Assembly: GCA_003155655.1 (NCBI GenBank)
Contig: PMDS01000103.1
Span: forward strand, 1,738 to 44,984
DNA length: 43,247 bases
Source: Melioribacter sp.
GTDB taxonomy: Bacteria > Bacteroidota > Ignavibacteria > Ignavibacteriales > Melioribacteraceae
Direction of reading: 5' to 3'
Made by a program: the position numbers and the translations under genes. The notes below the pieces were generated by a model. It saw only the letters and a list, made by a program, of their open reading frames with translations. It was not told the origin of the DNA and did no database searches. Below are positions 20,930 to 23,439 of the stretch, in pieces. Numbering within the stretch: position 1 is the stretch's first letter; each line of letters begins with the position of its first letter.

Positions 20930-20962
20930 GCAAATTTTGAAATGAAATTAGGGAGCGTTAAA

Positions 20963-22408
20963 ATGAAAAATTTATTGACTTTGGCTTTTGTATGCCTGAC
21001 GATAATTTGCAGTTCAAATATAAACCTTGCACAAAATGCTAGCGACGCATTAAGACTTAGTGAGCCGGGGATTATTTCCGGGGCTAGATCATTAGGTATG
21101 GGTAATGCTTATACTGCACTTAGTAATGATCTTTCAGCATCAGTTTTTAATCCTGCCGGTTTTGCTTTGAATAAAAAGATGGAACTTGACGTTACTTTCA
21201 ACTCCAATACTTTTAAAAATAATTCAACATTATTTGACCAGGTAACGGCATCTTCAAGTGATCAGACAAATTTTAGTCAGTTCGGTTTAATTTTACCTGT
21301 TCCTACAGTACAGGGCAGCCTTGTATTTGCTCTTGGATTTAACCAGTTGCAAGATTTTAACCGTTCGGTTCAATTTAATGGCTACAACGCAGGAAGCAAT
21401 TCTTATGTACAAGACCTGCTTCAATTTGGAAGTAATAATGAACTGGATATGCTTTATGCTTTAGGATTAACATATCTGGATGGAAATAATGTCGATCAGA
21501 CTAACATCAATGGCAAATTGAATCAAAGCGGAAATATTACACAGCAGGGAAGACTCAATAACTGGTTTTTATCCGGTTCAATGGAAATTGAACAGGATAT
21601 TTTCGCCGGTGTTACTATTGATATTTTAAGCGGTAACTATAAAAAGAATTTTGATTATTGGGAACAAGATTTGAGGAACAATTACCAGGGAATTCTTTTA
21701 GATGCTACCGATACCCGTACCAAAGGTTTTAAGTCATTTAATATCAATACAATTACAGACTGGGATATTTCAGGTTGGGATGCTAAACTTGGAATTCTGG
21801 CAAAAGTTGATGAACAGTTTAATCTTGGTGCCACAATTCAATTCCCTAAAACTTTTACAATTAAAGAAGGCTATTCTGTACAAGCGAGAACGGTATTTGA
21901 AAACAATCCTTTTTCTAGTGCGCCTGTTTACGACCCGGTTGAATATGATGTTACTACTCCTTATGAATTTACAATTGGAGCCTCATTTTCCCAAAATATT
22001 ATTACTGTAAGTGCAGATGCAAAATTGATTGATTACTCTTCTATGCAATTCACAAATGGCTTTGATTCCCAAAGTAGAAGTGATGAGAACAATTATATAA
22101 AGAATAACTTTAGATCAGTAATTAATCTGAACGGTGGTGTTGAGTTGTTAATTCCCCGCTCACATTTTGCAATAAGGGGCGGTTTTATGTATATGCCTTC
22201 CGCTTATAAAGATGATCCATCTGAATTTGACAAAAAATTTGTTACTGCTGGGGTTGGTTACCAGAGCACTAAAAATATGTCAATCAATTTTGCCTATGCA
22301 TATGGCTGGTGGCAAGATATTGGTGATAATTATGGAGCAAATTTATCAAGGACATATCAGGATATTAAAACTCAAAACGTAGTCTTATCTATGAAGTATA
22401 ATTTCTAG
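20963..22408 (+). CDS. OmpP1/FadL-family outer-membrane barrel
   Basis: I choose ATG 20963 because GGGAG at 20951-20955 fits it; an in-frame ATG at 20942 would add seven polar residues before the signal peptide. The 481-residue protein has a signal peptide ending near NLAQ. It continues with DALRLSEPGIISGARSLGMG and NAYTALSNDLSASVFNPAGF, a pattern typical of Bacteroidota OmpP1/FadL/TodX proteins. These form barrels for hydrophobic substrates. PorV of the T9SS belongs to the same wider superfamily, so a PorV-like role cannot be excluded. The protein ends in phenylalanine (MKYNF), the usual barrel-insertion signal. A strong terminator follows. Confidence 0.82.
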   Translation: MKNLLTLAFVCLTIICSSNINLAQNASDALRLSEPGIISGARSLGMGNAYTALSNDLSASVFNPAGFALNKKMELDVTFNSNTFKNNSTLFDQVTASSSDQTNFSQFGLILPVPTVQGSLVFALGFNQLQDFNRSVQFNGYNAGSNSYVQDLLQFGSNNELDMLYALGLTYLDGNNVDQTNINGKLNQSGNITQQGRLNNWFLSGSMEIEQDIFAGVTIDILSGNYKKNFDYWEQDLRNNYQGILLDATDTRTKGFKSFNINTITDWDISGWDAKLGILAKVDEQFNLGATIQFPKTFTIKEGYSVQARTVFENNPFSSAPVYDPVEYDVTTPYEFTIGASFSQNIITVSADAKLIDYSSMQFTNGFDSQSRSDENNYIKNNFRSVINLNGGVELLIPRSHFAIRGGFMYMPSAYKDDPSEFDKKFVTAGVGYQSTKNMSINFAYAYGWWQDIGDNYGANLSRTYQDIKTQNVVLSMKYNF

Positions 22409-22444
22409 TTCTAATAAACAATTTAAGTTTGACATCACTTATAG

Positions 22445-22471
22445 AGCGCCTTATTTTTAAGGCGCTTTTTT
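22445..22471 (+). terminator. Rho-independent terminator before rsgA
   Basis: AGCGCCTTA (22445-22453) and TAAGGCGCT (22458-22466) form a 9-bp stem with a TTTT loop and a T-run to 22471. It ends transcription from the OmpP1-like gene. Only four bases separate it from the rsgA ribosome binding site, so rsgA must be read through it or start from a promoter inside the preceding gene or hairpin. Confidence 0.92.
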
Positions 22472-22474
22472 ATT

Positions 22475-22488
22475 AGGAGGAATTTATA
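22475..22488 (+). promoter_or_regulatory. Ribosome binding site and AUA start codon of rsgA
   Basis: AGGAGG (22475-22480) is a perfect Shine-Dalgarno sequence. Five bases later comes ATA (22486-22488), in frame with all of rsgA. The stop TAG at 22474-22476 closes the frame just upstream. No ATG or GTG start with a comparable site is available: the first in-frame TTG, at 22657, would delete the N-terminal OB domain. Confidence 0.7.
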
Positions 22489-23439
22489 AAAGGAACTGTT
22501 TTCAAAATTGAAAGTAAAGATTATTACTTATTAGATCAGGATGGAAAAGAAATACGGTGTTCTTTAAGAGGGAAATTCCAAAAGGATTACAACCTTAAAA
22601 AAGATAAGCTCTTTGCTGTAGACATTGTTACTGTTGGAGACATTGTTTTATATGAATTGAATAAGGATGGAAGCGGTGTAATTAATGAAATCCTCCCAAG
22701 AAAAAATCATATCTCAAGAAAAGTACCGCGCATAAAAGGTGCTGGTTCCCGTGGTGAAAGACTTGAACAAATTGTCGCATCCAATATTGACAATCTTGTA
22801 ATAATTAGCAGCTGCAAAAATCCTAAATTTAATAACCGGTTAATTGATCGTCTCCTTGTATGCGCCGAAAGCTCCCATGTAAATTCTGTTATTGTAATAA
22901 ATAAAACCGATCTTGATATTGAAAATAATCGGGCCGGATGGATTGAACTATACCGGAAAATTGGCTACAATGTTATTGAAACTAGTGTAGTTAATAATGA
23001 AGGCATTGATAAATTACGTGATGCATTGAACACAAAAGTTAATTTGATCTGGGGGCAGTCTGGTGTGGGCAAATCCTCTCTGCTTAATTCTATCTATAGG
23101 GAACTAAACTTTAAGGTAGGTGAGATTAGTGAAAATACTTCAAAAGGGAAGCACACTACTGTAACAAGTATCCTAAAAAATGTCGGTAAAGGTACATTTA
23201 TTATTGATACACCCGGAATAAGAGAACTTGACCCGTACGGTGTACGTCAGGAAGACCTTGGACACTATTTTAAGGATTTCGTTCCATTCATTCACGATTG
23301 CAAATTTAACACTTGTACACACAACCACGAACCCGGCTGCAATGTAATAAATGCCGTCCGGGAAAAATTGATAAGTGAAGAACGTTACCATGGTTATCTA
23401 AATCTTCTTGAGACTATCGAGGATGATATGAATTTTTGA
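22486..23439 (+). CDS. rsgA: Ribosome small subunit GTPase RsgA with a probable AUA start
   Basis: RsgA is a circularly permuted GTPase that checks the decoding centre during 30S maturation. From ATA 22486 the product has 317 residues, normal for the family. It opens KGTVFKIESKDYYLLDQDG as expected for the OB domain. G4 is NKTD (139-142), the P-loop GQSGVGKSS is at 190-198, and DTPGIRELD is G3. The zinc finger uses Cys272, Cys277, His279 and Cys285. Starting at TTG 22657 would remove 57 residues, including most of the OB fold. The 3' end overlaps the convergent ATP-grasp gene by 26 bases. Confidence 0.9.
   Translation: MKGTVFKIESKDYYLLDQDGKEIRCSLRGKFQKDYNLKKDKLFAVDIVTVGDIVLYELNKDGSGVINEILPRKNHISRKVPRIKGAGSRGERLEQIVASNIDNLVIISSCKNPKFNNRLIDRLLVCAESSHVNSVIVINKTDLDIENNRAGWIELYRKIGYNVIETSVVNNEGIDKLRDALNTKVNLIWGQSGVGKSSLLNSIYRELNFKVGEISENTSKGKHTTVTSILKNVGKGTFIIDTPGIRELDPYGVRQEDLGHYFKDFVPFIHDCKFNTCTHNHEPGCNVINAVREKLISEERYHGYLNLLETIEDDMNF

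Follow-up and report, generated by a model that had tools for sequence, protein, structure and literature searches.

Conserved AUU, AUA and AUC starts of rsgA in the Ignavibacteriales and their possible dependence on IF3

The gene of the initiation factor IF3, infC, starts with AUA in Staphylococcus aureus. The Escherichia coli infC has an AUU start through which it is autocontrolled, as cited in PMC1780047 and in PMC9410913, and raised IF3 in vitro leads to a smaller share of full-length product from an AUU read by CAU (PMC10158994). The bacterial genes described in these sources as starting with AUU, AUA or AUC are few. An AUU start was suggested for lepA in two species (PMC1780047), and the staphylococcal genes ccpN (AUA) and cvfC1 (AUU) are conserved, carry extended Shine-Dalgarno sequences and were identified by retapamulin profiling and reporters (PMC13009471). 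In the case of the rpsU gene of Flavobacterium, a preference of bS21-less ribosomes for Shine-Dalgarno sequences has been proposed (PMC10783764, PMC9976891). RbfA, in turn, is reported to be released from the 30S subunit by RsgA and also by IF3 (PMC9032327).

The stretch of DNA analyzed here, called the window, comprises 43,247 nucleotides of a Melioribacter sp. genome (G000, 4.62 Mb in 137 contigs). It carries on its forward strand rsgA, the gene of the ribosome small-subunit-dependent GTPase A, as an open frame that begins with ATA (22486..23439). Throughout the text, AUH (ATH in DNA, with H being A, C or T) stands for the three codons AUU, AUA and AUC. Similarly to infC, rsgA of this order combines a non-AUG codon mismatched at its third position with a strong Shine-Dalgarno sequence, and both features are conserved in relatives. 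Contrary to the infC autocontrol, the control of rsgA by IF3 would act in trans, because rsgA encodes a protein other than IF3. The E. coli pcnB is similar in that it, too, is chromosomal and has an AUU start, by which it is limited (cited in PMC1780047), but it is described as a matter of expression limitation, whereas the product of rsgA assists 30S assembly and the AUH trait is common to rsgA and infC across an order. The conserved AUA and AUU starts of ccpN and cvfC1, with their extended Shine-Dalgarno sequences, are also alike (PMC13009471), but these are other genes, found in Bacillota and not involved in ribosome assembly. Finally, the initiation signals of rpsU in Flavobacteriales, also a 30S gene, are unusual and have been proposed to sense the state of the ribosome (PMC9976891, PMC10783764); this regulation acts through the Shine-Dalgarno sequence and bS21, whereas the candidate route for rsgA is a codon discriminated by IF3. 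As these sources describe them, conserved AUA or AUU starts with strong Shine-Dalgarno sequences are already known from infC, pcnB, ccpN and cvfC1. The novelty here is the AUH start of rsgA, which is unusually well conserved and has a mechanistically pointed partner in infC. No report of an AUH start for rsgA or for this order was found in the titles and abstract starts of the open-access papers searched.

The rsgA frame consists of 317 codons from ATA plus the TGA stop (23437-23439). The proposed initiation codon (22486..22488, forward strand as all features below unless stated) is preceded by the Shine-Dalgarno sequence AGGAGG (22475..22480) with five bases in between, and an in-frame TAG (22474..22476) closes the frame 12 bases before ATA. 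The first usual start downstream is the TTG at 22657..22659, that is, codon 58, and the window sequence contains no ATG, GTG or TTG in the rsgA frame between TAG and 22657. An AUH codon is thus the sole start available between the stop and the conserved coding sequence. Both the arrangement of AGGAGG, ATA and TAG and the position of the TTG agree with those described in the initial annotation. Translated from ATA, the protein begins with IKGTVFKIESKDYYL.

RsgA/YjeQ proteins are recognized by circularly permuted G motifs, in which NKxD comes before GxxxxGKS, and by a C-terminal zinc knuckle of cysteines and histidines. The translation of the window's gene, read by eye, has NKTD, GQSGVGKSS, DTPG and CKFNTCTHNHEPGC in this order, as in RsgA/YjeQ. 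In the profile search, TIGR00157 matched residues 49-309 with 230.7 bits (cut-off 100) and PF03193 residues 69-249 with 180 bits, while NF008931 and NF008932, which are longer-profile models, matched below their cut-offs. At 30.1 bits against a cut-off of 27, the RsgA_N profile (PF16745) covers residues 2-66, so that the stretch upstream of the TTG is part of the protein. Codons 2-57 change in the manner of coding sequence within the genus of the window: the differences by codon position are 685/571/1690 (2946 in total over 65 of 66 pairs, one out-of-register pair having been dropped). The 42 bases upstream of rsgA showed 320/370/351 differences in 66 pairs, with no codon periodicity.

In order to compare the starts among relatives, assemblies named as Ignavibacteria, Ignavibacteriales, Stygiobacter and Melioribacteraceae were included, and the order was taken as Ignavibacteriales from these names. 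Of the 57 near genomes, 54 gave orthologs, with G000 among them, and so did 20 further genomes of the order within a class sample of 294. In detail, 55 near genomes matched, one of them (G013) with a paralogue only, and two (G029 and G040) had no match. After the addition of seven named loci and the removal of the duplicates L031, L032 and L035, 78 non-duplicate loci remained. The rsgA start is ATT in 34 of them, ATA in 23 and ATC in 13, and the trait is conserved, as judged by these alignments, across most of the order (70/78). The remaining eight loci have ATG (five), TTG (two) or GTC (one). The initiation of rsgA at AUA, as it was initially proposed, is strongly supported by these orthologs, since the relatives were checked for ATG, the codon that would speak against AUA, and were found with AUU, AUA or AUC instead. 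An ATG turned into ATA by a sequencing or assembly error has a practically negligible probability. The window itself rests on a single assembly, but the AUH start recurs in the 70 loci, including those of the single-contig genomes G018, G045 and G047, and such an error is thereby ruled out as the cause of the ATA.

A Shine-Dalgarno match of at least four bases is located before 68 of the 70 AUH loci and one of at least five bases before 47; the two loci without a match of four (L052 and L079) both have ATT. An in-frame stop lies within 15 bases upstream in 19/70 loci, and in L017, L020, L065 and L066 it is merely 6 bases away. From -45 (or the stop) to +12, no ATG, GTG or TTG is present in 58/70 loci, and the first usual codons downstream are scattered among the relatives from +42 to +543. 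These distributions, together with the coding behavior of codons 2-57 and their match to RsgA_N, make it very improbable that translation begins at a usual codon elsewhere (a downstream TTG or ATG, an upstream ATG, or through a frameshift) and that the ATH is an ordinary isoleucine codon. In favor of such a usual start, the use of T, A and C at the start (34/23/13) resembles that of the internal isoleucine codons of these genes (1337/652/416), which means that there is no visible selection beyond "not G". Moreover, a usual codon stands in frame nearby at 12/70 AUH loci, where a usual start may be used. Among these, the codon lies 12-15 bases upstream in L009, L010, L021, L023, L025 and L040; for instance, ATG is found at -12 in L009 and L010 and at -15 and -30 in L025. 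In L045, a TTG at -3 directly precedes ATC, and this locus was counted as ATH because of its Shine-Dalgarno spacing only. Two more loci were placed by reading, namely L080, where ATG stands immediately before ATA (counted as ATG), and L039, where ATA is one codon earlier than the alignment position (counted as ATA).

The ATG loci within the order are L026, L041, L080, L087 and the divergent L061, and none of the five has a Shine-Dalgarno match of at least four bases. The two TTG loci (L034 and L070) are close relatives of each other, both with GGAG. As these two groups and the GTC locus (8/78) lack the device, it is dispensable. The GTC locus, L057 of the single-contig genome G048, has TGA 6 bases before GTC and no ATG, GTG or TTG until +126, so neither a usual nor an ATH start is available at its rsgA.

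The RsgA protein tree (85 rows, with the partial L037 and L089 and the duplicates left out) places ATH starts in each of the order's three families. The ATH label requires 8 changes on the tree, versus a shuffled mean of 14.8. Within the order, most of the ATG and TTG cases are surrounded by ATH rows and thus resemble reversals that came later, with some of the nearby forks being weak. The base of the tree is unresolved, 24 of its 82 inner branches being open, and a related lineage of the class (f13), a starred clade, joins the basal polytomy. All six f13 loci have ATG at the same codon, and a Shine-Dalgarno match of at least four bases was found before none of the six.

A second RsgA paralogue, divergent and with about 29-39% identity to the query, is present in many genomes of the order; the search of G000 gave one rsgA only. 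A usual start is available in all 20 loci of this paralogue that were read, and ATG is available in all 14 RsgA loci read from other Bacteroidota. Thus, the AUH start as a trait of RsgA in general was rejected.

The extent of AUH initiation within the window's genome was screened in 2.06 Mb (44.5% of G000), with 1,584 ORFs of at least 100 codons. Only rsgA and infC combined a Shine-Dalgarno match of at least six bases with a following ATH and with more than 40 codons free of usual starts. When the limits were relaxed to a match of 4 and to 20 such codons, 14 more ORFs appeared, which, except for one real gene with a GAF domain, were judged by eye to be spurious or chance codons inside genes. 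Behind Shine-Dalgarno sequences of at least five bases, ATH codons are as frequent as expected or slightly less so (seen/expected 92/96 for ATT, 50/56 for ATA and 18/22.5 for ATC), whereas ATG is enriched six-fold (282 seen versus 46 expected) and GTG and TTG about 1.8-fold. The lack of enrichment indicates that AUH initiation is no general habit, and a generally relaxed choice of starts in G000 was rejected on the same ground.

In infC, every one of the 30 loci read has ATC or ATT where ATG would be expected, mostly behind GAGAGG-type sequences; these loci were the top-scoring ones among 56 genomes with a match. The sequence is ATA-ATC in L112, and of the 30 loci L113 alone shows usual in-frame codons before the conserved part of the gene, one TTG and one GTG. 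The control genes rpmI and rplT, found by pattern in 1/30 and 13/30 loci, have ATG in all 14 cases. The initial annotation had named infC as the precedent for rsgA, and the choice was apt because in this order infC, too, begins with AUC or AUU. The AUH codon is kept in rsgA across most of the order alongside infC, and the screened 44.5% of G000 gave no further clear case.

The GAF-domain gene (PF13185) is located on the minus strand of a G000 contig (L299:5311-5805, G000:C58) and has a frame-closing TAA two codons before ATT. Its ATT start candidate is preceded by AAGGTGA, and matches were obtained in 41 of 43 other genomes searched (E<=0.001, some of them weak). As far as these signals indicate, it is a possible third AUH gene.

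Initiation at the AUH codon of rsgA is almost certainly performed by fMet-tRNA. The initiator would read AUU, AUA or AUC with a mismatch at the third position, while the good Shine-Dalgarno sequence would place the codon, and this would be the same device as the AUC or AUU of infC in the order. IF3 destabilizes and dissociates initiation complexes that contain a mismatch of this kind, and the yield of both RsgA and IF3 would accordingly fall when IF3 exceeds the 30S subunits. An excess of 30S particles over IF3 would in turn raise the translation of both infC and rsgA. In this way, the supply of RsgA, a GTPase of late 30S maturation, would be tied to the IF3/30S balance, and a joint supply of the two proteins would make sense because both release RbfA from the 30S subunit.

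The best explanation seems to be that rsgA, like infC, starts at a codon discriminated by IF3 and that the supply of RsgA follows the IF3/30S balance, a reading to which we incline modestly. To a similarly modest degree, IF3-dependent repression is favored as the main purpose of the AUH start of rsgA, with IF3 as the putative sensor. A throttle that is fixed is the main rival, with an appreciable but minor probability: the weak AUH codon would always keep RsgA low, without sensing the IF3/30S balance. Indeed, the AUU start of pcnB is described as reducing its expression in E. coli (cited in PMC1780047), and non-canonical starts in S. aureus are reported to have given about 10% of the expression of an AUG reporter, with ccpN reaching up to 30% in rich medium (PMC13009471). 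Moreover, a comparably low level could result in the five lineages where ATG stands without a Shine-Dalgarno match of 4. However, GTG, TTG or a weak Shine-Dalgarno sequence would suffice for this, and instead a good Shine-Dalgarno sequence is combined with IF3-discriminated codons, as in infC of the order. A regulatory effect is, we infer, somewhat more likely than a fixed low level of RsgA. The feedback function initially proposed for the weak rsgA start is plausible and now better motivated.

The Shine-Dalgarno sequence itself could be the sensing element, if ribosomes lacking bS21 favor mRNAs that carry it and the weak codon just enforces this dependence. In Bacteroidia, the anti-Shine-Dalgarno sequence is described as hidden with bS21 (PMC10783764, PMC9976891), and in this order rpsU, the gene of bS21, has a Shine-Dalgarno match of at least five bases before the start in each of the 30 loci read (L127-L156, out of 54 matched genomes), with TTG in 26, GTG in 4 and ATG in none. 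On the other hand, Shine-Dalgarno sequences are widely used in G000, where a match of at least five bases precedes the chosen start in 21% of 657 ORFs versus 2.6% of decoy positions. This is not far off the 32 at which Ignavibacteria are listed in PMC10783764, and on both grounds the anti-Shine-Dalgarno sequence does not look generally hidden. Sensing through ribosome composition is thus improbable as the explanation of the rsgA start. The 16S 3' tail, GGCTGGATCACCTCCTTTCT, has an intact CCTCC in the four relatives read. The pattern search for this tail gave a match in 21/57 genomes, some of them not 16S, and found no 16S end in G000.

Returning to IF3 as the factor behind the rsgA start, its role may extend to a small 30S regulon of the Ignavibacteriales, an idea put forward tentatively, at somewhat less than even probability. 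IF3 would be the trans-acting translational repressor of infC, rsgA, possibly the GAF-domain gene, and rpsU on its conserved UUG/GUG. The free 30S subunits relative to IF3 would then set the output of an initiation-fidelity factor and of a checkpoint GTPase of 30S maturation. The pairing of rsgA and infC points to a tie between ribosome assembly and start-site stringency, and it makes a coupling of ribosome assembly to the initiation-factor balance directly testable. At the level of annotation, gene callers restricted to ATG, GTG and TTG would drop the N-terminal domain of this core GTPase in many genomes.

The gene upstream of rsgA encodes an OmpP1/FadL-type outer-membrane protein (20942..22408; PF03349, 39.7 bits), and in the DNA available a homolog of it lies upstream in 65/78 loci of the order and in 4/6 f13 loci. 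It is followed by a hairpin (22443..22468), its probable intrinsic terminator, with a T run at 22466-22471; the fold of 22426-22477 has -16.4 kcal/mol. The hairpin and T run end directly before the Shine-Dalgarno sequence of rsgA. As a control element of rsgA, this leader hairpin was rejected: it is missing before the AUH loci L014, L016, L028 and L062, among others, and is therefore not part of the device.

A promoter-like TTGACA-N17-TATTTT (22429..22457) is probably that of rsgA, and its -10 box (22452-22457) falls within the loop that the terminator of the preceding gene forms. The pattern TTGA[CT]-N16-19-TA[TA]NTT occurs upstream of 41/78 loci, versus 1.2 expected from first-order Markov shuffles, and as the loci are related these matches are not independent cases. 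From such a promoter, rsgA would be transcribed with a short leader of its own, about 20-25 bases long, that holds the Shine-Dalgarno sequence. In L062 and L063, the boxes TTGACT and TATCTT are kept and the hairpin is gone.
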